This document shows, piece after piece, positions 15,368-50,502 of a stretch of 64,000 nt of DNA. A model generated the notes under the pieces. That model made no database searches. It saw only the letters and a program-made list of their open reading frames with translations, and had not been told where the DNA came from. How positions within the stretch are numbered: position 1 is the first letter of the stretch; each line of letters starts with the position of its first letter. Both the position numbers and the translations under genes were made by a program. This stretch comes from Arthrobacter sp. P2b (GTDB lineage: Bacteria > Actinomycetota > Actinomycetes > Actinomycetales > Micrococcaceae), in NCBI RefSeq assembly GCF_900168295.1, contig NZ_FVZL01000001.1, forward strand, positions 124,001 to 188,000, given 5' to 3'.

Positions 15368-18300
15368 TCACACCTTGAAGTACTTCGCCTCCGGGTGGTG
15401 GAACACGAACGCGTCGGTGGACTGCTCGGGATGCAGCATCAGCTCATCGCTCAAAACAACGCCCATCCGCTCGGGCTTCAGCAGCTCCGTCACCTTGCGG
15501 CGGTCCTCCATGTCCGGGCACGCGGGGTAGCCGAGCGAGAACCGGGCACCGCGGTAGTCGAGCTTGAAATATCCTGCCGTGTCCTTCGGCTCCTCCGCCG
15601 CGAAGCCCAGCTCCTTGCGGATCCGAGCATGCCAGAACTCCGCCAGCGCCTCGGTGAGCTGCATGACCAGGCCGTTGAGCTCGTAGTAGTCGCGGTATTG
15701 GTTTGCGGCGAACATCTTGGACGTGAACTCCTCGATCTTCGAGCCGGCGGTGACCAGCTGGACCGGCAGCACGTCAATCTGCCCCGACTCACGCGACTTC
15801 ACGAAGTCGGCCAGGCACAGGTGCCGGTCGCGGCGCTGGCGCGGGAAGTCGAAGCGCAGCCGGTCGGTGCCGATCGGACCACCTGAACCACCATCAGGGG
15901 CGAGCAGGCCCGCGGTGCCGAGGACGCCGTCGTGATCCTCCCCGTGGTGCAGCACCACCACCTGTTCCCCCTCGGAGACCACCGGGAAGTAGCCGTAGGC
16001 GACGGACGCGTCAAGCATTCCCTCGGCGAGGATCCGGTCCAGCCAGTAGCGCAGGCGCGGCCGGCCCTCGCGTTCCACCAGTTCCTCATAGGAGGCGCCG
16101 TCCTCACCGCGGCCGGGCTTGAGCCCCCACTGCCCCATGAACGTGGCGCGTTCGTCGAGCAAGGCCGCGTAATCGTGGAGTGCCACGCCGCGGACAATGC
16201 GTGTGCCCCAGAACGGCGGCGCAGGCACGGGGTTGTCGGAGGCAACGTCGGACCGGCCCGGCATTGCCTCCGGCTCGGTCACCGTAAACTTCGCGCCGCC
16301 CTTGTGGATGCGCTTCTTCAGCGGCGGCAGGCCGACGTCGTCCGGTGACTCGCCGCGGGCGACGCGCACGAGCGGTTCCATGAGGGCAAGGCCCTCGAAG
16401 GCGTCCTTGGCGTACCGGACCACGCCGTCAAACTGCTCCGCCAGGTCCTGCTCCACGTAGGCGCGGGTCAGGGCAGCGCCGCCGAGGATGATGGGCCACT
16501 TCTTCGCCAGGCCGCGGGACTGCAGCTCGGCAAGGTTCTCCTTCATCACCACGGTTGACTTCACCAGCAGCCCGGACATGCCGATCACGTCGGCGTTGTG
16601 CTCCTCCGCCGCGGCCATGATCTCGGCGATGCCCTGCTTGATGCCGATATTGATGACGTTGTAGCCGTTGTTGGTGAGGATGATGTCCACCAGGTTCTTG
16701 CCGATGTCGTGCACGTCGCCGCGCACCGTGGCGATCACCATGGTGCCCTTGCCCGAGGAATCGGATTTCTCCATGTGCGGCTCGAGCAGCGCGACGGCGT
16801 TCTTCATCACCTCGGCGGACTGCAGCACGAACGGCAGCTGCATTTCGCCGGCGCCGAAGCGCTCGCCCACCACCTTCATGCCCTCAAGCAGGTGGTCGTT
16901 GATGATGCCGAGCGGGGTCAGGCCCTCGCTGCGTGCCAGGTCGAGGTCCTCCTCGAGGCCCTTGCCTTCGCCGTCGATGATGCGCCGTTCCAGGCGCTGG
17001 CCGGTGGGCAGCGCCGCGAGTTCGGCGGCGCGCTGGTCCTTGAGCGCTGCGGTGTCGACGCCGGCGAACATGTCCAGCATGACGGCCAGCGGGTCATAGG
17101 TGGTGTTGCCGTCGGCGTCGTATTCGCGGCGGTCCCAGACGAGGTCCAGCGCCACCTTGCGCTGCTCTTCCGGCAGGGAGGCGAGCGGCACGATCTTGGC
17201 GGCGTCAATGATGCCGCTGGTCAGACCCGCCTGCGCGGCCTCGTGCAGGAACACCGAGTTCAGGACGACGCGCGCTGCCGGGTTCAGTCCGAAGGACACG
17301 TTGGAGACGCCGAGCGTGGTGTTGATGCCGGGGTACTTCGCGGTGATCTGGCGGATGGCCTCGATGGTTTCGATGCCGTCCCGGCGGGTTTCTTCCTGGC
17401 CGGTGGCGATGGGGAAGGTCAGGGCGTCGACGATGATGTCCTCGACGCGCATCCCCCATTCGCCCACCAGGGCATCGACGAGGCGGGAGGCGATGGCCAC
17501 CTTGCCTTCGGTGGTTCGGGCCTGGCCCTGTTCGTCGATGGTCAGGGCGATCACGGCGGTGCCGTGTTCCTTCACGAGCGGCATGATGCGCGCGAAGCGG
17601 CTGTTGGGGCCGTCGCCGTCCTCGTAGTTGACGGAGTTGACCACCGGGCGGCCGCCAATGAGTTCGAGCCCTGCCTGCAGCACGGGCGGTTCAGTGGAGT
17701 CGATGACGAGCGGGAGGGTGGAGGCCGACGCGAAACGCGAGACGATCTCCTTGATGTCCGCGACGCCGTCGCGCCCCACGTAGTCGATGCAGACGTCCAG
17801 CAGGTGCGCGCCGACGCGGACCTGCTCGCGGGCGATGTCCACGCAGTCGTCCCAGCGCTCTTCGAGCATCGCCTGGCGGAACGCCTTCGACCCGTTGGCG
17901 TTGGTGCGCTCACCGATGGCGAGGTAGGCGGAATCCTGGTCGAACGGCACGTGGTGGTAGAGGGACGCGATGCCGGCTTCACGCTCGGTGGGGGTGCGGG
18001 CGGCGCCGTTGCTGGCTTTCGTCTCCGTGGTGACCGGGGCTGCGGTGCGGAAGGGCGCAAGGCGTTCGACGACGGCGGCCATGTGCTCCGGCGTCGTACC
18101 GCAGCAGCCGCCCACCAGGCCCAGGCCGAATTCGCGCACGAACTGCTCGTGGGCGGTGGCGAGTTCGGTGGGTGAGAGTGGGTAGTGCGCGCCGTTGGGG
18201 CCGAGGACCGGCAGGCCGGCGTTGGGCATGCAGGCGATGGCCACGGAGGACTGCTTGGAGAGGTGGCGGAGGTGCTCGCTCATCTCGTCCGGGCCGGTGG

Positions 18301-19021
18301 CGCAGTTCAGGCCGATGGCGTCGACGCCGAGCGGCTCCAGTGCGGTGAGTGCAGCGCCGATTTCGGAGCCCATGAGCATGGTTCCGGTGGTTTCGACCGT
18401 TACCTCGACGAAGATGGGGAGCCGGATGCCGCGTGTCACGATGGCCTGCTTGCAGCCGTTGACGGCGGCTTTGGTCTGCAGGAGATCCTGGCTGGTTTCG
18501 ATGAGGAAGGCGTCCGCTCCCCCGTCGATGAGGCCCTCGGCCTGCAGGGCGAAGGTCTGTTTGAGGTAGTCGTACGTGGTGTGGCCAAGGCTGGGGAGCT
18601 TGGTGCCCGGGCCCATGGAGCCGAGGACCCAGCGCATCCGGCCGTCTGTTTTTTCTGCCGCTTCTGCGCGTTCCCGGGCGATCTCGGCGCCCTTGCGGGC
18701 GAGCTCTTCGATGCGGTCGTCGATGCCGTAGTCGGAGAGGTTGGACCAGTTGGCCCCGAAGGTGTTGGTCTCGACCGCGTCGATGCCTGTGGCGAAGTAG
18801 GCATCGTGGATGTCGGCGAGGACATCCGGGCGGGTGTCATTGAGGATCTCATTGCAGCCTTCGAGGCCCTGGAAGTCTTCCTCGAGAGACAGGTCCCGGC
18901 CCTGCAGCATGGTGCCCATCGCGCCGTCAGCAATGACGACGCGGTGATTCACTGCGTCCAGCAGCTCCTGCGATCGGACAGGGCGGGGCACGGACTCAAT
19001 ATCAAGCGCAAAACGAGGCAT
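15368..19021 (-). CDS. metH: Cobalamin-dependent methionine synthase
   Basis: A 1217-residue protein, close to the usual ~1230. Domains in order: homocysteine-binding barrel with zinc ligands C240 (NCATGP) and C306/C307 (GGCCGTTP); pterin-binding barrel with DVCIDYVGRDG and VIDSTEPPVLQ; B12 cap and Rossmann domain with DVHDIGKN, where H771 is the lower cobalt ligand; and the C-terminal activation domain (RPRLRYWLDRI, RFSLGYPACPD). It transfers the methyl group of 5-methyltetrahydrofolate to homocysteine in the cytosol. It stands alone; I see no cobalamin riboswitch in the 430 nt upstream. Long open frames on the opposite strand are high-GC shadows. Confidence 0.97.
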   Translation of the reverse strand: MPRFALDIESVPRPVRSQELLDAVNHRVVIADGAMGTMLQGRDLSLEEDFQGLEGCNEILNDTRPDVLADIHDAYFATGIDAVETNTFGANWSNLSDYGIDDRIEELARKGAEIARERAEAAEKTDGRMRWVLGSMGPGTKLPSLGHTTYDYLKQTFALQAEGLIDGGADAFLIETSQDLLQTKAAVNGCKQAIVTRGIRLPIFVEVTVETTGTMLMGSEIGAALTALEPLGVDAIGLNCATGPDEMSEHLRHLSKQSSVAIACMPNAGLPVLGPNGAHYPLSPTELATAHEQFVREFGLGLVGGCCGTTPEHMAAVVERLAPFRTAAPVTTETKASNGAARTPTEREAGIASLYHHVPFDQDSAYLAIGERTNANGSKAFRQAMLEERWDDCVDIAREQVRVGAHLLDVCIDYVGRDGVADIKEIVSRFASASTLPLVIDSTEPPVLQAGLELIGGRPVVNSVNYEDGDGPNSRFARIMPLVKEHGTAVIALTIDEQGQARTTEGKVAIASRLVDALVGEWGMRVEDIIVDALTFPIATGQEETRRDGIETIEAIRQITAKYPGINTTLGVSNVSFGLNPAARVVLNSVFLHEAAQAGLTSGIIDAAKIVPLASLPEEQRKVALDLVWDRREYDADGNTTYDPLAVMLDMFAGVDTAALKDQRAAELAALPTGQRLERRIIDGEGKGLEEDLDLARSEGLTPLGIINDHLLEGMKVVGERFGAGEMQLPFVLQSAEVMKNAVALLEPHMEKSDSSGKGTMVIATVRGDVHDIGKNLVDIILTNNGYNVINIGIKQGIAEIMAAAEEHNADVIGMSGLLVKSTVVMKENLAELQSRGLAKKWPIILGGAALTRAYVEQDLAEQFDGVVRYAKDAFEGLALMEPLVRVARGESPDDVGLPPLKKRIHKGGAKFTVTEPEAMPGRSDVASDNPVPAPPFWGTRIVRGVALHDYAALLDERATFMGQWGLKPGRGEDGASYEELVEREGRPRLRYWLDRILAEGMLDASVAYGYFPVVSEGEQVVVLHHGEDHDGVLGTAGLLAPDGGSGGPIGTDRLRFDFPRQRRDRHLCLADFVKSRESGQIDVLPVQLVTAGSKIEEFTSKMFAANQYRDYYELNGLVMQLTEALAEFWHARIRKELGFAAEEPKDTAGYFKLDYRGARFSLGYPACPDMEDRRKVTELLKPERMGVVLSDELMLHPEQSTDAFVFHHPEAKYFKV

Positions 19022-39395: not shown

Positions 39396-40475
39396 CTACG
39401 TCTCCTGTGACGTGCGGGGTGTGGCGCGGGTGGAGCTGTTGCGTACAACAAGTGTGGGTGCGATGGGAGTACGGTCTACCTCCTGCCCCTCCATGGCACC
39501 GATAAGCACCTCCATGCTCATCAGCGCCAATGCAGTGAAATCCTGGCGCACGGTGGTCAGGGGCGGCAGGAAATAGTCGGAACCTTCGATGTCGTCGAAG
39601 CCGACAATACTCACGTCGTCCGGGACGCGGACCCCATTTTCGGCAAACGCGCGAATAAGCCCGAGGGCAGTGTGGTCGCTGGCCGCGAAGATCGCCTGGG
39701 GGACCCTGTCTTCGCGGACCAGCTTCAGGCCCGTTTCGTAGGCCCATCGGGGGCTCCAGTCGCCCTCGAGGCAGAGCCCGGGCGAAAGGCCCGCGTCACG
39801 AAGCGCGGCCTCCCAGCCGCGCTTGCGCACCCGTCCGTCGAACCAGTCCATGGAGCCGGCGATGTGGGCGATGTCTGTGTGGCCCAGGTCGATGAGGTGT
39901 TGGGTGGCCAGCCGTGCTCCGAGCTCCTGGTTTTCAGAGTATGTGAACACGTTGGGGGTGGATGATGCACCTGCGGCAATCATCTCCACGGGCACCCGGC
40001 ATGATGCATTCCAGACTGCTGCCGCCATATCCACCACTGGTGCGATGACGATGATTCCACCCACGCCGACGTCATCGAGGGTGTCCAGGGCGGGCTGCAC
40101 AGACTCTGCGTAGGGCTGCTCCACACTGATGACGGTTGTGGCGTAGCCCTTCTTCCGCGCCACGTTCTCAAGGGCCATGAGTGTCCCGACAGGACCGAAC
40201 CGAGGGGAGCCGTCGGACAGTATCCCGATGGAGGTGGACCGGCTGGTGACCAGCGCGGTGGCCGCCCTGTTCCGGCGGTACCCAATGTCCTTGATGACGT
40301 CCAAAACGCGCTGCCGGGTTGCGGCACTGACGTCCGGTGCATCGTTCAGGACCCGTGAGACAGTGCCAAACGAGACTCCGGCGAGTTGGGCGACATCGTT
40401 GATGGTTGGCTTCCGCCGCGGCGGGGCGTCCGAAAGCCGCCCTTTCGCCCCGCGTGGGATTGCAGCGTCTGCCAT
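39396..40475 (-). CDS. LacI-family repressor (LacI-3) of the third sugar module
   Basis: A 359-residue regulator with helix-turn-helix TINDVAQLAGVSFGTVSRVLND and effector domain (SIGILSDGSPRFGPVG, SIVGFDDIEGSDYFLP). ATG at 40475 follows CAGGAGAG. It is divergent from the unknown lead gene and importer operon, and three CGTAAACGTTTACG-like sites lie in the gap, so it likely represses both directions. Effector unknown, presumably the imported sugar or a derivative. Confidence 0.92.
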   Translation of the reverse strand: MADAAIPRGAKGRLSDAPPRRKPTINDVAQLAGVSFGTVSRVLNDAPDVSAATRQRVLDVIKDIGYRRNRAATALVTSRSTSIGILSDGSPRFGPVGTLMALENVARKKGYATTVISVEQPYAESVQPALDTLDDVGVGGIIVIAPVVDMAAAVWNASCRVPVEMIAAGASSTPNVFTYSENQELGARLATQHLIDLGHTDIAHIAGSMDWFDGRVRKRGWEAALRDAGLSPGLCLEGDWSPRWAYETGLKLVREDRVPQAIFAASDHTALGLIRAFAENGVRVPDDVSIVGFDDIEGSDYFLPPLTTVRQDFTALALMSMEVLIGAMEGQEVDRTPIAPTLVVRNSSTRATPRTSQET

Positions 40476-40603
40476 GGTCTCTCCTGTCTCGCGTCGCCAG
40501 TACCGACGCCGGCGCCGGTACGGCGTGCCTGTCAATCCTATGTCGACGCCGGTCCTGCCCATTGCTCCTCCGTCGTGCTGCTGTGAGGTTTGACACTTCA
40601 TTC

Positions 40604-40660
40604 CGTAAACGTTTACGATCGTCTCCGTAAACGTTCACGGTAGCCGCGTTAGCGTTTACG
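40604..40660. promoter_or_regulatory. Three tandem LacI-3 operators
   Basis: CGTAAACGTTTACG at 40604-40617 is a perfect 14-bp palindrome. CCGTAAACGTTCACGG at 40625-40640 and CGTTAGCGTTTACG at 40647-40660 are variants. Centre spacings are about 22 and 21 nt, two helical turns, which puts all three on the same face of the DNA. Confidence 0.8.
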
Positions 40661-40693
40661 GAAGCGAAAACATTCAATGAGGAAGGAGCGGAA

Positions 40694-41176
40694 ATGCCTG
40701 GCACCGTTGCAGATGCACTTGCGCTCGATTCCTGTTTCAGGCTTCGAAATATTCACTGGGGGCAGTGGGCAAATCTGGCATTGCTCCTCACTGATGAAGC
40801 AGTCGATGATCTCGCGGCAGCCGTCCGGGCCTTCGTCACCGCTGGCTCCTCGGCCGTTGTCTGCATCTTCGATGACAACGTCCTTTGGGCCAGCATGGTC
40901 ATCACCGTTGACACGTCGGGTGGAGGCGCATCTGTGTCCACGCTGGACGGCCCGGCTGCCGAAGCTGGCAGTGACATGACTAAAGCGGCAGGCGAAGCAG
41001 TGAGATGGGTGCAAGCCCACTATGGGCCGTGCTCCCTGGGCTTCTTCGTCAATAAAGAGCATGCACAGGCCATCCTGTGCGCTTCGGACAAGGCCGGCGC
41101 TATCCGTTCAGCCTCGGCCGCCGCTGGTCTCGTCCTGTCGCCGATTCCCCCGGCGCTGGCCATAGCCCTCGCCTGA
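40694..41176 (+). CDS. Unknown 160-residue protein, first gene of the third sugar operon
   Basis: The ATG is preceded by AGGAAGGAG. The protein starts MPGTVADALALDSCFRLRNIHWGQ; it has no signal peptide or clear TM helix, but the C-terminal ~30 residues are rich in Ala/Leu/Pro. Moderate hydrophobic strands alternate with helices (SSAVVCIFDDNVLWASMVITVD; MTKAAGEAVRWVQAHYG; SLGFFVNKEHAQAIL), suggesting a small alpha/beta or roadblock-like fold. I do not recognise it. The pattern AIL-CASDKAGAIRSASAAAGLVLSPIPP resembles no enzyme motif I know. Its place under LacI-3, ahead of the binding protein, ties it to uptake or first use of the sugar. Confidence 0.75.
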   Translation: MPGTVADALALDSCFRLRNIHWGQWANLALLLTDEAVDDLAAAVRAFVTAGSSAVVCIFDDNVLWASMVITVDTSGGGASVSTLDGPAAEAGSDMTKAAGEAVRWVQAHYGPCSLGFFVNKEHAQAILCASDKAGAIRSASAAAGLVLSPIPPALAIALA

Positions 41177-41217
41177 TCTACCCCAACCATCCATCCACCT
41201 CAAAGCACTGGAGAACA

Positions 41218-42378
41218 ATGATGATCCGCAGGCTTCCCCTCATGGCCGTGGCAGCAGTCCTGTCACTTTCGGTCGCCTCCTGCAGCAGCTCCACAACGGC
41301 TAGCTCGAACGCTCCTGACGCCGGTATCTCCGAAAAGGCTCAACAAGCCCTCGACAAGATCACGGGACAGGTCCTGAGCAAGGGCCCCAACGGCGAAACG
41401 CCCTCCCCCGCGTCCGTTGCAGACCTGACGCCTGAAGAGATCGAGAAGGTCAAAGGACTCAACGCCACAGCAGCAATTGTGATGCACTACGGCGGCAACG
41501 ACTGGGCCACCGCCCAAGTCAACGGACTCAAGAGCGAATTCGAAAAGCTGGGCATCAAGGTCATCGCCACGACCGATGCGAACTTCAAGCCGGACAAGCA
41601 GGTCTCCGACCTCGAGACCGTGATGACACAGGACCCGGACATCATCGTGTCCATCCCCACGGATCCCGTTGCCACCGCCTCCGCCTACAAGAAGGCCGCT
41701 GCTGCCGGCACGAAGCTCATCTTCATGGACAACGTTCCCCAGGGCTTGACCGCCGGCCAGGACTACGTCTCCGTTGTCTCTGCCGACAACTATGGCAACG
41801 GCGTCGTCTCCGCCCACCAGATGGCCAAAGCGCTCGGCGGCAAGGGAAAGATCGGCCTTGTCTTCCACCAGGCCGACTTTTTTGTGACCAAGCAGCGGCA
41901 CGAAGGCTTCAAGGACACCATCACCAAGGAATACCCGGAGATCCAGATAGTGGAGGAAAAGGGCATCGCCGGCCCGGACTTCGCTGGAGACGCCCAGGCT
42001 GCGGCCAACGCCATGATCAGCAAGTACCCCGATCTCGCCGGCATCTGGGCGGTATGGGACGTCCCGGCAGAAGGTGTCATGGCAGCAGCCCGTGCCTCCG
42101 GCCGGAAGGATTTGAAGATCGCCACAGAGGACCTCGGCAAAAACGTTGCCATCGCCCTGGCCAAGGACGAGCTCGTCGTCGGCCTCGGAGCGCAGGTTCC
42201 CTTCGACCAGGGTGTTACTGAAGCACGGCTGGGCGCAGGCGCCCTGCTCGGTAAGGAAGCGCCGGCCTACGTGGCGTTGAGCGCCCTCCCGGTTGACCAC
42301 TCAAACGTCCTGGAGGCCTGGAAGCAGGTTTACCACGAGGACGCCCCGAAGGACATCCAAGAGTCCTACAAGCAGTAG
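41218..42378 (+). CDS. Sugar-binding lipoprotein of the third ABC importer
   Basis: A 386-residue lipoprotein with signal and lipobox LSVASCSSS, then a ~60-residue helical insert (ISEKAQQALDKITGQV...TPEEIEKVKGLNA) before the periplasmic fold begins at AAIVMHYGGNDW. Tandem ATGs at 41218/41221 follow CTGGAGA. The fold continues with DPDIIVSIPTDPVATASAYKKAA. It precedes an ATPase and permease in the usual CUT2 order and is probably the most abundant product because a hairpin follows its stop. Ligand unknown. Confidence 0.88.
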   Translation: MMIRRLPLMAVAAVLSLSVASCSSSTTASSNAPDAGISEKAQQALDKITGQVLSKGPNGETPSPASVADLTPEEIEKVKGLNATAAIVMHYGGNDWATAQVNGLKSEFEKLGIKVIATTDANFKPDKQVSDLETVMTQDPDIIVSIPTDPVATASAYKKAAAAGTKLIFMDNVPQGLTAGQDYVSVVSADNYGNGVVSAHQMAKALGGKGKIGLVFHQADFFVTKQRHEGFKDTITKEYPEIQIVEEKGIAGPDFAGDAQAAANAMISKYPDLAGIWAVWDVPAEGVMAAARASGRKDLKIATEDLGKNVAIALAKDELVVGLGAQVPFDQGVTEARLGAGALLGKEAPAYVALSALPVDHSNVLEAWKQVYHEDAPKDIQESYKQ

Positions 42379-42388
42379 CCAGACCCGA

Positions 42389-42415
42389 CGGTGCGGGGGC
42401 CCCACCCCCGCACCG
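42389..42415 (+). promoter_or_regulatory. Intercistronic hairpin after the third binding-protein gene
   Basis: CGGTGCGGGGG and CCCCCGCACCG form a perfect 11-bp GC-rich stem with a 5-nt loop, 10 nt after the stop and 17 nt before the ATPase start. No T run follows. Confidence 0.68.
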
Positions 42416-42431
42416 CGCCGAAAGGGCAACA

Positions 42432-43937
42432 ATGAACACCGCAGACAATGTCGTCGAGATGCGCTCGATTTCCAAGGGCTTCAATGGCGTTTCCGTGCTG
42501 AAGGATGTCAGCTTCGACGTCCGCCACGGCGAGGTCCACGCGCTGGCAGGCGGTAACGGTGCCGGGAAGTCCACGCTCATGAAGATCCTCCAGGGCGTCT
42601 ACCAGACAGACGCCGGCGAGATCCTCATCGGAGGCAAACCTGCCTCCATCAACTCGATCCAGGACGCGAAGGCGGCCGGGATCGGCATGGTCTTCCAGGA
42701 ATTCAGCCTCGTGCCGAGCCTGACCGTTGCGCAGAACATCTTCCTCGCCGCTGAACCGCTCGGCCCGGGCGGGCTCATCGACGACCGAACCGCGGTGAAG
42801 CGGGCCAAGGAGGTCTTCGCCGAAATGGAGGTCGACGTCGACGCCCGGGCAGAGGTTTCACGGCTCGGCACCGCTTACTGGCAGCTGACGGAAATCGCCA
42901 AGGCCCTCGCACAGGACGCAACTGTGCTGATTATGGACGAACCGACCGCCAGCCTGGCGCGGCACGAGTCCGAGGCCCTCTTCGAACTGATTGACCGCCT
43001 TAAGCAACGTGGCATCTCCATCATTTACATCTCGCACCGCATGGACGAGGTGTACCGGCTCGCAGATCGCATCACCATCCTCCGCGACGGCCGCCACCTC
43101 CTCACGGAGCCGCTCACTGACGTCACTCCCGAGCAGATCGTGGAAGGGATCGTCGGGAAGAAAATCGAGGGCCAGCTTTCGTACCGTGCCCGTCAGGTGG
43201 CCCAGGACGCGGCACCCCTGCTCGAGGTCCGCGGGCTGAATGCCGGCCACCGGGTCCGGGACGTGTCCTTCGCACTCCGGCCCGGCGAAATCCTCGGCCT
43301 GGCAGGACTCATGGGCAGCGGACGCACCGAGCTAGCGCGGGCACTCTTCGGCATTGACAAGGTGGACAGCGGAGAGGTCCTGCTTCGCGGCAAGAAGGTC
43401 AACCTTGCAACTCCGCAGCAGGCCATCAACGCCGGCGTCGCCCTCATCCCGGAGGACCGCAGGGACCAGGGCCTGGTCCTCGAGCACTCCGTCCAGGACA
43501 ACCTGCTGCTGCCGCTGCTTGGACAGATTCAGCGCGGACCCCTCCTGGACGGCACCAAAGGCAAGGAATTGTCCTCGTCGCTGATCAAGAGGTTCGCAGT
43601 AAAGGTAGCCCACCCCCACCGGCCGGTGCGGCTGCTCTCCGGCGGCAACCAGCAGAAGGTGGTCATCGCCAAGTGGCTGGGCACCGATCCGGACATCCTG
43701 ATCCTGGACGAGCCAACGGCCGGCGTCGACATCGGCACCAAAAGCGAAATTTTGGACATGATCCGTGAGCTGGCCAATGCCGGCAAGGCCGTCATCGTCA
43801 TCTCCTCCGAGTATCCCGAACTACTCGCGGTCAGCGACCGCGTCCTCGTCCTCAAGGACGGCTCCATCATCCGCGACATCCCCCGCAGCGAGATCGCTGA
43901 CGAGGAATATCTCCAACTTGCAGTCCAGGGAGTCTGA
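42432..43937 (+). CDS. Sugar ABC importer ATPase, double-domain RbsA/MglA type (third importer)
   Basis: A 501-residue protein with two nucleotide-binding domains: GGNGAGKSTLM and VLIMDEPTASL in the first, LAGLMGSGRTEL, LLSGGNQQKVVIAKWL and LILDEPTAGVDIGTK in the second. The first signature region is degenerate, as is normal in the family. CGAAAGG lies upstream of the ATG. It energises uptake of the sugar recognised by the preceding binding protein. Confidence 0.92.
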   Translation: MNTADNVVEMRSISKGFNGVSVLKDVSFDVRHGEVHALAGGNGAGKSTLMKILQGVYQTDAGEILIGGKPASINSIQDAKAAGIGMVFQEFSLVPSLTVAQNIFLAAEPLGPGGLIDDRTAVKRAKEVFAEMEVDVDARAEVSRLGTAYWQLTEIAKALAQDATVLIMDEPTASLARHESEALFELIDRLKQRGISIIYISHRMDEVYRLADRITILRDGRHLLTEPLTDVTPEQIVEGIVGKKIEGQLSYRARQVAQDAAPLLEVRGLNAGHRVRDVSFALRPGEILGLAGLMGSGRTELARALFGIDKVDSGEVLLRGKKVNLATPQQAINAGVALIPEDRRDQGLVLEHSVQDNLLLPLLGQIQRGPLLDGTKGKELSSSLIKRFAVKVAHPHRPVRLLSGGNQQKVVIAKWLGTDPDILILDEPTAGVDIGTKSEILDMIRELANAGKAVIVISSEYPELLAVSDRVLVLKDGSIIRDIPRSEIADEEYLQLAVQGV

Positions 43938-43940
43938 ACA

Positions 43941-44930
43941 GTGAGCAAGGCAAACACCATCGCGCCCCGGGACACCACCGCGGCACCCCGTCAATTTGGC
44001 ACCATCCTGAAAGAACTCGACTGGCGCCGCTACGTCATCTACATCGGCTTCGTGGTCGTCTTCCTTTTCTTCGCCGTTCTGCTGCGCGACCAGGGCTTCC
44101 TGTCGCCGAACAACCTGCTGAACATCTTCCGGCAGACTGCCACCATCACCGTCATAGCAGTAGGCATGACATACGTGATCGCATGCGCTGAAATCGACCT
44201 GAGCGTCGGATCCGTAGCCGGCCTCTCCAGTGTCTGCACCGCCATGGCCCTCTCCCAGTGGGGCCTGATCCCCGGCATCCTTGCCGGCCTCGCCGTCGGG
44301 CTCGTGGTCGGATCGGTCAACGGCGCCCTGGTGAGCCTCCTCGGAATCCCCTCCTTCCTGGTGACCCTCGGCATGCTGGGAATAGCCGTTGGCGTTGCCC
44401 AGTGGATTACCGCCTCGGCGCCCCAGCCGATTCTGAACGACACCTTCAACACGCTGTTCGGATCGGGGAACTTCGGTCCAATTCCGGGCCTGGTGGTCTG
44501 GAGCGCCATCTTCGTTGCCATCGGCGCCGTCGTACTGAACCGCACCCGGTTCGGCCGGCAGGTCCTCGCCACAGGCGGCAACCGCAACGCGGCAGAGTTC
44601 ACCGGCATCAACACCAAGCGGATCAAATTCCAGGTGCTCCTCATCTCGGGCATGGTGGCGAGCGTCGCCGGCATGCTGTACGCCGGCCGCCTCGAGTCGG
44701 GCCGATTCCAATGGGGAGCAGGCGACGAACTCTCCGCCATCGCCGCAGTCATTTTGGGTGGAACCAGCCTCTTTGGCGGATTCGGCTCAATCGTCGGAAC
44801 TCTCTTCGGGGCCCTGCTGATTGGCCTGATCAACAACGGACTGATCCTGGCCGGGCTCGACAGCAGCCAGCAGCAGGTGGTCCGCGGCGTCATCATCATT
44901 CTCGCCGTCGCGCTCGCCCGGAAGAAGTAA
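43941..44930 (+). CDS. Sugar ABC importer permease, RbsC type (third importer)
   Basis: A 329-residue CUT2 permease with CAEIDLSVGSVAGLSSV and ELSAIAAVILGGTSLFGGFGSIVGT. GTG start 3 nt after the ATPase stop, with CAGGGAG inside the end of that gene, so translation is coupled. About ten TM segments. It completes the importer of the LacI-3 module. Confidence 0.91.
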   Translation: MSKANTIAPRDTTAAPRQFGTILKELDWRRYVIYIGFVVVFLFFAVLLRDQGFLSPNNLLNIFRQTATITVIAVGMTYVIACAEIDLSVGSVAGLSSVCTAMALSQWGLIPGILAGLAVGLVVGSVNGALVSLLGIPSFLVTLGMLGIAVGVAQWITASAPQPILNDTFNTLFGSGNFGPIPGLVVWSAIFVAIGAVVLNRTRFGRQVLATGGNRNAAEFTGINTKRIKFQVLLISGMVASVAGMLYAGRLESGRFQWGAGDELSAIAAVILGGTSLFGGFGSIVGTLFGALLIGLINNGLILAGLDSSQQQVVRGVIIILAVALARKK

Positions 44931-44992
44931 ACAATGCCGGTGATTCCGGCACGCAACTCGCAGTCCATCCCCGCAGTCGAAAGGCACAAACA

Positions 44993-45808
44993 ATGAAACT
45001 TGGTTACTGTTCCATCACCTGGGGCGGCGTCGTCGGCCACCCCCAAGGCGTGACGAGCGTCAAGGACCTTTTTTACATGACCCACGGATCCATGAGCGAC
45101 GCCGTCCGGGACATCGCATCTGTCGGGTACGAAGGTGTGGAAATGTTCGACGGCAACCTCGCGGAGTATGCCAACAAACCGGAGGAACTCAAAGAGCTCC
45201 TGAGCAGCTCCGGGGTCTCCCTGGCAAGTGTGTATACCGGGGCCAACTTCATTTACGCCGACATCCTGCCCGACGAGATGCACCGGATCCACCGGGCCGC
45301 CGAGCTGGCGGCTAACTTCGGAGCCGAACGGCTCGTCGTCGGCGGTGGGGCACGACGCGCTGCCGGAACCAACGAGGAGGACTACCGCCGCCTCGGTGAA
45401 GCGCTGGACCGCGTCACGGACATCGCAGAAAGCTTTGGGCTGTCGGCAAGCTACCACCCGCATCTCAGCACCATCGTGGAGAGCCCGGACGAGCTGGACA
45501 AGCTCATGCCGCTTACCCGGATAGGCTTCTGCCCGGACACGGCCCATCTTGCAGCCGGCGGAGCAGACCCGGCCGCAGTCATCCGGAAGTATCCCGACAG
45601 GATCCGGCACGTCCACCTCAAAGACTTCCAGCAGACCCCGTTCACCTTCCTCCCGCTGGGCCAGGGCGAACTCGACTTCCCGGACATCATTGCCGCCATC
45701 CGGGAAAGCGGATACGACAGCTGGCTCATGGTCGAACTCGACAACTACGACGGCGATCCCCGCGAAGCTGCCGAAATCAGCAAGAAGTATCTCGAGAAAA
45801 TCCTCTAA
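44993..45808 (+). CDS. Sugar phosphate isomerase/epimerase (xylose-isomerase-like TIM barrel)
   Basis: A 271-residue AP-endonuclease-2-type barrel starting MKLGYCSITWGG. Likely metal ligands lie in YEGVEMFDG, SYHPHLSTI, FCPDTAHL, HVHLKDF and MVELDNYDG. ATG at 44993 follows CGAAAGG; the frame is open further upstream only as a shadow of the permease. Relatives include IolE, hydroxypyruvate isomerase and C-glycoside-cleaving enzymes, so it may epimerise, dehydrate or deglycosylate a keto-sugar. Its partner is the Gfo/Idh/MocA gene downstream. Confidence 0.87.
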   Translation: MKLGYCSITWGGVVGHPQGVTSVKDLFYMTHGSMSDAVRDIASVGYEGVEMFDGNLAEYANKPEELKELLSSSGVSLASVYTGANFIYADILPDEMHRIHRAAELAANFGAERLVVGGGARRAAGTNEEDYRRLGEALDRVTDIAESFGLSASYHPHLSTIVESPDELDKLMPLTRIGFCPDTAHLAAGGADPAAVIRKYPDRIRHVHLKDFQQTPFTFLPLGQGELDFPDIIAAIRESGYDSWLMVELDNYDGDPREAAEISKKYLEKIL

Positions 45809-45876
45809 CCAATTTTGACCATCAGGGAAAGCCAGCCTCGGCGACTCCCGTCTTTTCCGAAAGGAACCTCGTTCAC

Positions 45877-47049
45877 ATGCAGAACCTCAACGTCGGCCTC
45901 ATCGGTGGGGGCTTCATGGGCAAAGCCCATTCCCTCGCTTACGCCGCCATGCCCATGTTCTTCTGGCCAGCACCGGCTCTTCCGGTCCGCAAGGTCATCG
46001 CGGAGGCCAATCCGGAACTGGCCGCCGAAGCGGCCCGTCGCTTCGGCTTCGAAAACTCCACCTCTGACTGGCGCAGCATCATCGAAGATCCGGACATCCA
46101 CGTGGTGGATATTGCAACGCCGAACCATCTCCACGCTGAAATCGCCATAGCTGCCGCCGAAGCGGGCAAGCACATCATCTGCGAAAAACCCCTGGCCCGC
46201 ACGGGCGAAGAATCCAAGGCCATGTATGACGCAGTCAAAGACAAGAACATCGTCCACATGGTCGCCTTCAACTACCGGCGCACGCCTGCAGTTGCGCTGG
46301 CCAAGAAGTACATCGAGGAAGGTGCCATAGGCAAGATCCTCAGCTTCCGCGGGACCTACCTGCAGGACTGGAGCGCCGACCCTAACTCGCCATTGTCCTG
46401 GCGTTTCCAGAAGTCAATCGCGGGTTCCGGCGCCCTTGGCGATATTGCCACGCACGTCTTCGACATGGCCCGCTACCTCGTCGGCGAGTTCAGCGCCGTC
46501 AACGCGGTCCTGTCCACCTGGATTCCCGAGCGGCCCCTCCAGGCGGGCGGGGCCGATGCGCTCGGCACCGTACGGGGCGGAGAGGGCCCGCGGGGCCCGG
46601 TTGATGTCGACGACGAGGTCATGACGATGATCCGGTTCGCCAACGGAGCCGTGGGATCCGTGGAGGCAACACGCAACGCGCACGGAAGGAACAACTACAT
46701 CACCTTCGAAATCCACGGAACCGAAGGCAGCATCGTCTTCAACTACGAACGACGCGATGAGCTGCAGGTCTGCTTCGCTTCCGACCAGGCCGACCGCCGC
46801 GGATTCCGCACCGTTTACACCGGCCCTGCCCATCCCTACGGAGAAGGCCTGTGGCCCATTCCAGCTCTGGGCATTGGCTACGGGGAAACGAAGATCATCG
46901 AAGCGTACGACTTCTTCAAGGCCATTGCAGAAGGCGGCAGCGTGAGCCCCAACTTCGCCGATGGTTACCAGGTGGCCCTCATCGACGACGCAATTGTCGA
47001 ATCCGCTGCAAAAGAATCATGGGTGGAAGTTCCGCAGATCACCGACTAA
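45877..47049 (+). CDS. Gfo/Idh/MocA-family oxidoreductase of the third sugar module
   Basis: A 390-residue protein: Rossmann motif NVGLIGGGFMGKAHSLAYA, signature IICEKPLAR with the catalytic Lys, then a C-terminal domain with GDIATHVFDMARYLVG, where Asp/His fit the active site. AAAGGAA precedes the ATG. The pairing with an isomerase/epimerase resembles IolG/IolE-like and 3-keto-sugar pathways. It probably oxidises the imported sugar, inositol or glycoside with NAD(P). Exact substrate unknown. Confidence 0.9.
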   Translation: MQNLNVGLIGGGFMGKAHSLAYAAMPMFFWPAPALPVRKVIAEANPELAAEAARRFGFENSTSDWRSIIEDPDIHVVDIATPNHLHAEIAIAAAEAGKHIICEKPLARTGEESKAMYDAVKDKNIVHMVAFNYRRTPAVALAKKYIEEGAIGKILSFRGTYLQDWSADPNSPLSWRFQKSIAGSGALGDIATHVFDMARYLVGEFSAVNAVLSTWIPERPLQAGGADALGTVRGGEGPRGPVDVDDEVMTMIRFANGAVGSVEATRNAHGRNNYITFEIHGTEGSIVFNYERRDELQVCFASDQADRRGFRTVYTGPAHPYGEGLWPIPALGIGYGETKIIEAYDFFKAIAEGGSVSPNFADGYQVALIDDAIVESAAKESWVEVPQITD

Positions 47050-47054
47050 CCCCA

Positions 47055-47093
47055 TTTCCGGGAGGGACGGCGAAAAGCCGTCCCTCCCGGAAA
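47055..47093 (+). promoter_or_regulatory. Strong hairpin between the oxidoreductase and ABM genes
   Basis: TTTCCGGGAGGGACGGC and GCCGTCCCTCCCGGAAA form a perfect 17-bp stem with a 5-nt loop, 5 nt after the stop. It lacks a T run, so it may limit rather than end transcription into the ABM gene. Confidence 0.72.
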
Positions 47094-47123
47094 CCCAGGA
47101 CGACCATAAGCAAGGAAGGCAAG

Positions 47124-47447
47124 ATGCCACAGCCCCTCCCGATCCGCCAGGAGACTGCAGAAGTCTGGCTCATGCCGGTTTTCATCGCCAAAGCAGGGCA
47201 CGAAGCCGACCTCCAGGAAGCCCTCCACGCTCTTCAGACGCTAAGCCGGAAAGACCAAGGATGCCTGGAATACACCGTTTTCTCTGACGAACATCAGCCC
47301 GGTACCTTCGTTCTCTTCGAAGGCTGGGCGCGTGACGAGGACCTCGCAGCGCATAACGAAGAAGACCATGTCAAGGCGTTTGTGAAGGAAGCGGAACCGC
47401 TCTTGGCAGTACCGTTTTCCGTCACTCCCATCACGCCCCTCACCTAA
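47124..47447 (+). CDS. ABM-fold monooxygenase-like protein of the third sugar module
   Basis: A 107-residue protein with AEVWLMPVFIAKAGHEADLQEALHALQTLSRKDQGCLEYTVFSDEHQPGTFVLFEGWARDEDLAAHNEEDH spread over the usual ABM strands and helices (quoted in family order, not as an exact run of residues), with a conserved His late in the fold. AAGGAAGGCAAG precedes the ATG. It is the distal gene of the LacI-3 operon. As with the ABM gene in the fructose module, its task may be breakdown or isomerisation of a reactive sugar product. Confidence 0.83.
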   Translation: MPQPLPIRQETAEVWLMPVFIAKAGHEADLQEALHALQTLSRKDQGCLEYTVFSDEHQPGTFVLFEGWARDEDLAAHNEEDHVKAFVKEAEPLLAVPFSVTPITPLT

Positions 47448-47462
47448 TTCCGTTCCCTGGCG

Positions 47463-48788
47463 TCACCCCGACAGCACGGCGATTCCGTCGATCTCCACCT
47501 TCATTCCGGGCCCCAGTCCGGCGGAGACGGTGGTGCGGGCGGGATAGGGCTTGTCGAAGAACTCCCCGTACACCTCGTTCATGCCGGGGAACTCCCCGTT
47601 TCGCTGTATGAGTACGTTGCCGAGTGCAGTGGCGGGTGTCAGCGATCCTTTCGCGGCGGGCAGCCGGTCACCGTCGAGGGCAAGAGCGAGTGCAGTCTCG
47701 CCTGCCATCACGGCGGTGGCGGCATAGCCGGGATCACCGGGGCCCGCAGCAACCGCCTGGTATCGGTGTCCGTCCTCGGTGCGGGCGGTCACCTGGGAGT
47801 GGAACCAGCCCGCGCGCTGCATGCTTGTGGTCGGACCCGCACCCGGTGCCGGAAGAGAGCGGTCAAGCACCCTTCGGGTCGGCGGGAACGCCATCGCGCC
47901 TGTGAATGCCCGGAGCCCGAGTGCCATCGCCCTGGCGATGACCGCTCCCGCCGGTCCCCGGGCCACCCCCATCACCTCGCCGTACTGAAGGGAGCGGCCG
48001 TAGGCCCAGCCCTGCAAGGCGTTGCTACGGCGCACTATCCGGGTGTTGAACGGGGCCATGATGAAGGGCGCGGTCCAGGTGCCGTCATCGGAATGGCGCA
48101 CAGGGCCGGAGTCAGGGGGCTGTTGTGTCGTCGGTTCCCGTGTGCGGTCCGGGCTCAGAGCGTAGGGGTCCGCAGCTAATGATCGCAGGGCAGGGCTCAA
48201 TCGCATTGCGTCGAGCTGCCCGCGCATCGATTCGAGCGTTCCTCCGCTGATGCCAGCCTTGGCCGTAGCAACGAGTTGGACTTCGACCAGACCGCCAGCG
48301 CCATCGGCTTCTGCCGCCTGATGAAGCATCAGTACAGCGAGGTCAGACGGCACGGAGTCGTAGCCGCAGGAGTGCACGATCCGGGCCCCACTCGTCCTGG
48401 CCAAAGCGTCGTAACAATCGATCGCCTCGCGGACGAAGGACACCTCACCGGTGAGGTCGGCGTAGTGCGTACCGGCCCGCGCGCAGGCGTCGACGACGGG
48501 TAGTCCGTGTTTCGCATATGGACCGACGGTAGTGAAGAGTACGCGTGTGTTCGCGGCCAGGGCGGCGATAGAGTCCGCGTCCTCCGAGTCGGCTTCGATG
48601 AGGGCCCATGCCTGAGCCGCGACCGGCAACTGCGACCGAACCGTCGCGAGTCTGGACATCGACCGGCCCGCGAGACCGACTCGCATACCGGCCGGCGCAT
48701 GCTCCGCGACGTAGGCGGCGATCAGTCGGCCAACGAAACCCGTCGCTCCGTAAAGAACGAGGTCATGTTCCCGAGATGAGGTGTCCAT
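47463..48788 (-). CDS. Saccharopine-dehydrogenase-like oxidoreductase with a RidA-like C-terminal tail
   Basis: A 441-residue protein. Residues 1-396 match the saccharopine dehydrogenase NADP-binding/trans-acting enoyl reductase family: VLYGATGFVGRLIAAYVAEH at 12-31, YADLTGEVSFVREAID, HSCGYDSVPSDLAV. The family's usual end, TPATALGNVLIQR, is followed not by a short tail but by about 45 residues (FPGMNEVYGEFF..PYPARTTV..GPGMKVEIDGIAVL) that match the last third of RidA/YjgF proteins, including the substrate-binding Arg. This looks like fusion with a truncated ridA by deletion. Reductase activity may survive; the RidA piece alone cannot form its trimer. Confidence 0.82.
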   Translation of the reverse strand: MDTSSREHDLVLYGATGFVGRLIAAYVAEHAPAGMRVGLAGRSMSRLATVRSQLPVAAQAWALIEADSEDADSIAALAANTRVLFTTVGPYAKHGLPVVDACARAGTHYADLTGEVSFVREAIDCYDALARTSGARIVHSCGYDSVPSDLAVLMLHQAAEADGAGGLVEVQLVATAKAGISGGTLESMRGQLDAMRLSPALRSLAADPYALSPDRTREPTTQQPPDSGPVRHSDDGTWTAPFIMAPFNTRIVRRSNALQGWAYGRSLQYGEVMGVARGPAGAVIARAMALGLRAFTGAMAFPPTRRVLDRSLPAPGAGPTTSMQRAGWFHSQVTARTEDGHRYQAVAAGPGDPGYAATAVMAGETALALALDGDRLPAAKGSLTPATALGNVLIQRNGEFPGMNEVYGEFFDKPYPARTTVSAGLGPGMKVEIDGIAVLSG

Positions 48789-48947
48789 AACTGCAGCCTT
48801 TCACAGCGGCAACTCCAAGCTAATACACGGCTCCTTGTTTTGAGTCGACGTCACCTTGAAGGTCATAGTGTAGGAATCCCTAGGATTCTTTATTTCCCGT
48901 GGATAGTCTGGGGCAGGACACCACCCTAGACGAGCGTCAGTGAGAAT

Positions 48948-49763
48948 GTGATCGAAGCAGTTGCTGCGGTAATCGGCCGGAACAATGTCACCATAACCGG
49001 CCGGGATGATGGGCCTGTAATGATGTTTGCCCACGGTTTTGGCTGTGATCAGGCTATGTGGCGGAAGCTGCTGCCCTACTTCGTTGATGATTACCGGCTG
49101 GTGCTCTTTGATCATGTTGGTGCGGGAAACTCCGACATCAGCGCCTATGACTGGGAGAAGTACGGGTCCTTGGACGGGTACGCGTCGGACCTGCTCGAGA
49201 TCTGCGCTGCCCTCGAACTTGAGGACGTCATCCTGGTGGGCCACAGCGTCAGCACAATGATCGCCGTGATCGCCGCAGTGCGGGACCCCAACCGTTTCTC
49301 CCACCTTGTCCTGCTTGCTCCTTCGCCCCGTCATACGGATGACCCGTACGACGGGTACGTGGGCGGGTTTTCCCGGGAAGACATCGAGGGCCTGCTGGCA
49401 TCCCTGGACAGCAACTATTTCGCCTGGGCAGCGGCCCTGGCGCCCATGGTCATGGGCAATCCGCAGGAGCCGGAATTAGCGGAGGACCTGCGTGCCAGCT
49501 TCTGCCGGACAAATCCCGCCATCGCACGCCACTTCGCCGAGGTAACCTTCTTTTCCGACACCCGCCCACAACTGAAAAAGTTGCGCACCAACTGCCTGAT
49601 TTTGCAGTGCTCCGACGATCGCCTTGCCCCGCCGGAAGTGGGCGCCTACCTGCACAAGAATCTGGGACACAGCACCCTGATGCAGCTTCAGGCCACCGGA
49701 CACTGCCCCCACGTCAGTGCTCCGGAGGAAACGGCCCGGGCGATTCTGCACTACCTCTCGTGA
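48948..49763 (+). CDS. Alpha/beta hydrolase, RsbQ-like
   Basis: A 271-residue hydrolase with the RsbQ-type start RNNVTITG..GPVMMFAHGFGCDQAMWR, nucleophile elbow VGHSVSTM (S100), an Asp in CSDDRLAPPE and His in ATGHCPHVSAPEET. RsbQ acts with RsbP in general-stress signalling of Bacillus and resembles strigolactone receptors; no RsbP or sigma-B gene lies nearby. GTG start with weak ribosome site. A GAATCC-CTA-GGATTC inverted repeat at 48874-48888 lies in the divergent promoter region shared with the dehydrogenase gene. Confidence 0.85.
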   Translation: MIEAVAAVIGRNNVTITGRDDGPVMMFAHGFGCDQAMWRKLLPYFVDDYRLVLFDHVGAGNSDISAYDWEKYGSLDGYASDLLEICAALELEDVILVGHSVSTMIAVIAAVRDPNRFSHLVLLAPSPRHTDDPYDGYVGGFSREDIEGLLASLDSNYFAWAAALAPMVMGNPQEPELAEDLRASFCRTNPAIARHFAEVTFFSDTRPQLKKLRTNCLILQCSDDRLAPPEVGAYLHKNLGHSTLMQLQATGHCPHVSAPEETARAILHYLS

Positions 49764-50041
49764 CAGGCGCCGCACGCCCCCACCCTGGCTAAACTGCCAT
49801 GCGGTAAGCAACCGTCTAGCGAGGGCACACCAATCGGACGAGCTTTCGTGTTCGTCTTGACTTCTTTCTGAGACAGGCCCAGAACAGCGACTGCTTGAAG
49901 CATCCGAGATGCCCTCCGTTACCTTTCCAGCAGGTGGCGTCGGCGGGTGGCGGGACTAAAAGCGCCTCTGTGTCGATACAGTAGGAAGCTCAGTCTGTGG
50001 CCGCATCCAGCAGGGCTTTGATGAGGAGCTGATACCTCCCG
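49764..50041 (+). other. Stretch without a gene ahead of the broken ATPase
   Basis: No open frame with a ribosome site. It may contain further, unrecognisable parts of the degenerate ATPase gene that follows. Confidence 0.4.
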
Positions 50042-50486
50042 CATCGTACAGCGAGCTCTTCAGCCAGGGAGGCATCGGCATCTCCCCCAAACCTCATCCA
50101 AGAGGCCGCCGAAGCCACAGAGGGGGTATCCCTTCCTGATCCAACTGGTCGGCTACTACCTCTGGCTCGAAGCCGACAAGGCAGGATGGAAACTCGACCA
50201 GACCAACGTCCACCGTGGAATCACTGCGGCCCAACGACGGAACACGTTGGTGATCGTCGAATCAGCACTGTCAGACATCTCGGACAGAGACCGCGACTTC
50301 CTTGACGCGATGGCCGGCCAGGACGGGCCCTCTGCCGCCGGTCAGATCGGCGCAATCCTCAAAGCCAAGCCCAACGTCGTATCCAAGTACCGGAATAGGC
50401 TCATCGCTGCGGGCCTGATCGAGTCCGCAGGCTACGGCAAAGTCGACTTCGCAATCCCCGGACTCCGCCAATACCTCCGCGAGTAG
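50042..50486 (+). pseudogene. Remnant of an AAA-type ATPase gene (C-terminal part only)
   Basis: From about 50124 one frame reads GYPFLIQLVGYYLW, then a winged-helix tail (DRDFLDAMAGQDGPS...VVSKYRNRLIAAGLIES...FAIPGLRQYLRE) to a TAG at 50486. This is the usual C terminus of a ~400-residue ORC-like ATPase. The upstream piece NLIQEAAEAT fits the same family but is in another frame, broken at the GGGGG run near 50122, and an earlier shift is likely at the AAA near 50090. The Walker A half is absent. An apparent 79-codon gene from 50247 is only this tail. Confidence 0.72.
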
Positions 50487-50502
50487 CTTGACAGAATCTT
50501 TA

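Follow-up and report, generated by a model that had tools for sequence, protein, structure and literature searches.

How did one reading frame in the 64,000-nucleotide stretch of DNA from a soil Arthrobacter analysed here (the window) come to begin as a saccharopine-dehydrogenase-like protein and to end as RidA, and does its product gain anything from the foreign end? The frame (47463..48788, minus strand) is open throughout, with no internal stop, and encodes 441 amino acids. Residues 1-396 (47601..48788, minus strand) correspond to residues 1-396 of a 410-residue family protein that has lost its last 14 residues, and residues 397-441 (47463..47600, minus strand) derive from ridA and are followed by ridA's own stop codon. 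The Pfam profile Sacchrp_dh_NADP (PF03435) matches residues 11-135 with 34.9 bits against a cut-off of 25.1. The profile of RidA (Ribonuc_L-PSP, PF01042) matches residues 392-438, where a complete domain of 121 profile positions is absent and only positions 71-120 are represented. On the whole chimera this second profile passes narrowly (29.6 bits, cut-off 27.3), on the last 53 residues alone it scores 34.7 bits (E 2e-8), and TIGR00004 stays below its threshold (30.6 against 106.25). The dehydrogenase/RidA chimera is real and was correctly spotted in the earlier note.

The closest comparisons for the tail are ridA of Pseudarthrobacter sp. NamB4, with 90.6% DNA identity over 47453-47611, and a ridA remnant of genome G205, with 89% over 47462-47616, both far beyond chance. 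Compared with the 127-residue NamB4 RidA, 3 of the 45 tail residues differ (397, 440 and 441), and the base differences are 8 silent and 4 replacement changes. What the chimera shares with the RidA/Rid imine deaminases (PF01042, TIGR00004) is the last third, with the VEID strand and R418, which aligns with R104 of NamB4 RidA, a conserved arginine invariant in 12 alignment rows; the N-terminal two thirds are missing. Both the profile positions and the NamB4 match bear out the earlier description of the tail as about 45 residues from the last third of RidA including its arginine. Likewise, the piece amounts to about one third of the fold and not to a complete RidA, as expected from the earlier view that it would be insufficient alone.

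The dehydrogenase part is 88-93% identical at the DNA level to 20 near loci of Arthrobacter and Pseudarthrobacter (L002-L020 and L026), and the similarity to these loci stops at 47601/47602. The near-relative proteins have 410 residues (one has 416). Their family-typical end is TPATALGNVLIQR followed by LRAAGHTYQVTKLA or close variants, and the chimera lacks 14 residues of it. The earlier note had taken the family-typical end to be retained, which does not hold, and its picture of two fused 3' parts needs correcting too, since the dehydrogenase contributes the first 396 of 410 residues, nearly the whole gene. The C-terminal helix-strand end L-x2-A-G-x-T, conserved in an alignment of 23 sequences, is replaced by RidA sequence. 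The chimera shares the NADP-binding domain and the overall fold with the saccharopine-dehydrogenase-like oxidoreductases (PF03435), the nearest solved folds of its core being carboxyspermidine dehydrogenase (8h4z and 8deb) and the saccharopine-type Wolinella structure 4ina in the PDB, but it lacks the 14 conserved residues at their end, among them those of the predicted terminal strand, and adds a foreign tail of 45 residues.

We searched 198 genomes of the genus and obtained 25 matches, the own genome included. In 19 other genomes the dehydrogenase is full-length (residues 1-396), and in none of them does it run on into RidA; this count leaves out G192 (distant, 43%), G180, G125 and G081 (broken or partial) and G144 (ridA alone). 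In the family, 65 out of 385 genomes gave a match, of which the own genome alone extends to residue 441; matches in G343, G367 and G300 extend to residues 417-428 across a TGA, past their own stop. The genus and family samples overlap, and up to 8 and up to 4 candidates were scored per genome, respectively. Among plasmids, none of the best 20 of 95 matching records extends past residue 420 of the chimera, and our literature search found nothing on a fusion of RidA with saccharopine dehydrogenase. As judged from these matches the chimera appears unique within the genomes searched. The earlier note had raised the possibility that relatives carry the fused form widely, as an established domain architecture, and we rejected this on the genus and family counts. 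The genomes that were searched also hold other dehydrogenases in disrepair: G130 has two copies (L011 and L026), each 440 bases from a contig start and one with an in-frame TAA, and the gene is also broken in G180 and G125. A record labelled Vibrio cholerae strain 35D (L039) carries an Arthrobacter-type dehydrogenase with 80% identity, and its organism name is probably wrong.

The second parent is scarce. Only 1 out of 206 genus genomes (G144) has a close intact ridA, whose protein is identical to that of NamB4, and three more have a relative at 58-63%. A mobile element as carrier of the ridA piece was considered and not favoured: the piece was matched in 7 out of 395 family genomes, the own genome included, and in six plasmid records covering at most 55% of the query. 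In NamB4 and at locus L050, ridA comes after a sugar-aldolase gene, as named from the translations. The remnant in G205 (L146:6957-7111) is another 3' piece of the same ridA, cut at a different point and placed in an unrelated neighbourhood, so that breakage of this ridA has happened at least twice within the genus. In the own genome we found no second intact dehydrogenase and, at a threshold of 1e-30, no intact ridA of the tail's subfamily; three other PF01042 genes are present.

We then considered what surrounds the chimera in the window. On its left lies a levoglucosan dehydrogenase cluster with an ABC transporter (39400-47447, the transporter being read from the open reading frames), which is matched in many members of the genus. 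It includes the levoglucosan dehydrogenase gene (45877..47049, plus strand; NCBIfam NF052479, 750.5 bits, cut-off 650), and its last gene before the ridA fragment encodes an ABM domain (47124..47447, plus strand; PF03992). The cluster ends within about 20 bases of the ridA piece, and for the majority of the strongest matches its similarity to relatives breaks off at about 47440-47451; the last ridA-similar bases past the stop codon (47453..47462, minus strand), which belong to the NamB4 match, adjoin this end. On the right lies an alpha/beta hydrolase gene (48948..49763, plus strand). In the spacer between dehydrogenase and hydrolase, the upstream flank of the former extends to about 48837 and that of the latter begins at about 48841, so that the similarities of relatives end and start on separate flanks and mark a second joint at approximately 48837..48845. 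About 250 bases beyond the hydrolase, a third joint at about 50039 opens the 3' remnant of an AAA ATPase gene (50039..50502, plus strand) that is whole, as a 346-residue reading frame, in G016. A 79-residue reading frame inside this stump (50247-50486) could pass for a small gene. The dehydrogenase-hydrolase pair (47601-49785) is thus flanked by two gene stumps, the 3' fragments of ridA and of the ATPase gene, and three joints fall within 2.5 kb.

In relatives the same two genes are arranged differently. The hydrolase is adjacent to the 3' side of the dehydrogenase and convergent with it in 14 out of 20 relative places (two of these are truncated by the end of a contig); in the remaining six there is no hydrolase within 1.5 kb of the dehydrogenase. 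Among the places compared, the divergent arrangement occurs only in the own genome. A further neighbour in several relatives is metH (15368..19021, minus strand; TIGR02082), which in the window lies about 28 kb off. Out of 13 twenty-kb loci, four (L159, L162, L163 and L169) have the metH block no more than about 65 bp from the dehydrogenase block, on the side away from the hydrolase, and a fifth has it 1.9 kb from the dehydrogenase. One contig of G099 (C12) carries hydrolase, dehydrogenase and metH, in that order, at 72.9-78.8 kb, followed by the levoglucosan cluster at 92.4-100.4 kb. This arrangement is likely the older order, a reading based on one contig of one genome, with metH adjacent in just 4 of the 13 loci. 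The window keeps the order of metH followed by the levoglucosan cluster, on whose far side the dehydrogenase and then the hydrolase now stand, with their orientations unchanged. The pair is permuted, its old outer ends being joined inside and its old inner ends now facing outward. Such a permutation would result from a tandem duplication followed by trimming deletions, or from a circular intermediate, but not from a plain deletion.

Both parents can be named, the joins are sharp, the gene order is altered and the fusion is absent from the other genomes searched. Taken together, we consider that the chimera is most probably a non-adaptive scar of rearrangement, left at the edge of a relocated and permuted block. 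The order of events and the mechanism, as we infer them, would be as follows. The dehydrogenase-hydrolase pair, which sits beside metH in several relatives, would have come to stand about 28 kb from it, beyond the levoglucosan cluster. Its order would have changed from a convergent hydrolase-dehydrogenase to a divergent dehydrogenase-hydrolase arrangement, through tandem duplication and deletions or through a circular intermediate that was opened elsewhere. At one end, the block would have been cut within the final dehydrogenase codons and fused there, in frame, with the 3' fragment of ridA, and the other end would have come to lie near the 3' fragment of the ATPase gene. The encoded product is a dehydrogenase without its terminal beta-strand, followed by a 45-residue tail that is predicted to be unstructured and ends at ridA's stop.

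A simpler origin, and in corrected form the one favoured in the earlier note, is a deletion between two neighbours on the same strand, with the dehydrogenase upstream and ridA downstream, that removed the end of the first gene and the start of the second. The parts are indeed on the same strand and in frame, ridA's stop and a few downstream bases are retained, and the hexamer CAGCGA (47601..47606, minus strand) is found at the join in part of the sequences of each parent, a pattern that deletions between short repeats leave. However, the two genes were not found side by side: a search with NamB4 RidA detected no RidA-like gene in any of 30 relative loci of 4.4-20 kb (several sharing a genome) that carry either the dehydrogenase or the levoglucosan cluster. 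The search found two out of two known ridA loci and one out of three further Rid loci that the own genome has; since two of the three divergent controls were missed, it excludes close RidA only and is blind to divergent Rid genes. Moreover, the usual downstream neighbour of the dehydrogenase is the hydrolase, the window has three joints rather than one, and the gene order shows relocation and permutation. A deletion between neighbours is for these reasons an improbable origin, even if a short-lived intermediate with dehydrogenase and ridA adjacent is possible.

The bases at the join leave two placements. The L160 dehydrogenase equals the chimera, except for one base, up to CAGCGA, and NamB4 ridA also has CAGCGA at the join, after which the chimera is one base shorter than the ridA of NamB4 and G205. 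The join may thus lie at the hexamer, with one base lost, or one codon further, with one substitution. The hexamer is present in only 5 out of 12 dehydrogenase rows and 1 out of 3 ridA rows among those compared, too few to demonstrate joining by microhomology. Either placement gives an in-frame outcome, for which the chance is about 1 in 3. The kept frame, needing one base less or one substitution relative to the two ridA relatives, could be a hint of selection.

In a further reading the fusion would be functional, the RidA tail replacing the lost terminal strand or tethering the dehydrogenase to a RidA trimer. In addition to the kept frame, the small number of residues that separate the tail from NamB4 RidA and the excess of silent base differences would agree with a functional tail, and MAFFT sets the tail's GMKVEIDGIA over GHTYQVTKLA of the relatives; the silent changes can, however, predate the fusion and stem from the time when the sequence was part of a whole ridA. 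Structure prediction, which the earlier note had proposed for the tail, argues against it. The AlphaFold model of the chimera has a mean pLDDT of 77.9, but the tail scores 30-42 without secondary structure, and all but one of residues 398-441 are below 50. The model of an intact relative of 410 residues (L155) has a mean of 88.3, and its last strand, at residues 403-409 within a block averaging 91, has no counterpart in the chimera model. The chimera's alignment had 33 rows, which stop at or close to residue 396, and that of the relative had 23; part of the gap in pLDDT may come from this difference, and we therefore draw only on the tail and the lost strand: as a monomer, the chimera is predicted to have an unstructured tail and to have lost the terminal beta-strand of the dehydrogenase.

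What is described of RidA points in the same direction. RidA is trimeric, its ligand cleft lying between two subunits, and according to PMC4960622 S80, S92 and K136 of the plant enzyme matter for the trimer; counted from the conserved arginine, their equivalents would fall in the part that is missing here. The role of this active-site arginine in the Rid family is described in PMC4433059 and PMC4960622. Since the residues that hold the trimer would lie in the missing part, although the arginine itself is kept, RidA activity of the tail is not expected, and the tail should be unable to build a RidA barrel or the cleft of the trimer. Among the Rid fusions described in PMC4433059 are tandem 3x-RidA proteins and rarer two- and four-domain forms; these likewise carry Rid sequence in a longer protein, but as tandem Rid domains, whereas here a 3' fragment alone is joined to an unrelated enzyme. 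Given also that the fusion occurs in one genome only among the genus and family genomes searched, we regard a functional fusion as very unlikely; the tail would then be without function and the dehydrogenase would at best work as a truncated enzyme. The dehydrogenase part itself gives no sign of decay or relaxed constraint: its mean dN/dS to 19 relatives is 0.18, compared with 0.22 for 148 pairs in which the relatives are set against each other (pairs with a dS of 0.15 or less being excluded), and its private changes are 12 silent and 7 replacement. Such values would be seen if the enzyme is still of use, or if the fusion is too young for decay to have set in.

That the assembler joined two unrelated loci is scarcely credible, for although the genome is a draft of 47 contigs, the join lies inside a contig of 1.03 Mb, the dehydrogenase has one match only in the own assembly, and the missing 5' part of ridA and 3' end of the dehydrogenase gave weak matches only (E of 0.027 or more and of 0.045 or more, respectively) in an assembly rated 99.99% complete, so that a swap would need two missing pieces. 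A simple frameshift, which the earlier note had suggested resequencing might reveal, was rejected on the same grounds, as neither the dehydrogenase 3' end nor the ridA 5' part was found elsewhere in the assembly.

For annotation, the fragment is a warning: it passes the Pfam cut-off, and naming the reading frame RidA or a two-domain enzyme from the Pfam match alone misleads. No new system is indicated, and the locus is of interest as an instance of a rearrangement creating or damaging a gene. If the in-frame tail were a useful graft, either as a replacement edge strand or by docking on the cell's other RidA proteins, which we think most doubtful, a new two-part protein would have been made in one rearrangement. 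The locus offers a clean example of the birth of a chimeric gene in a bacterium, in which both parents, three joints and the likely older order can still be read.
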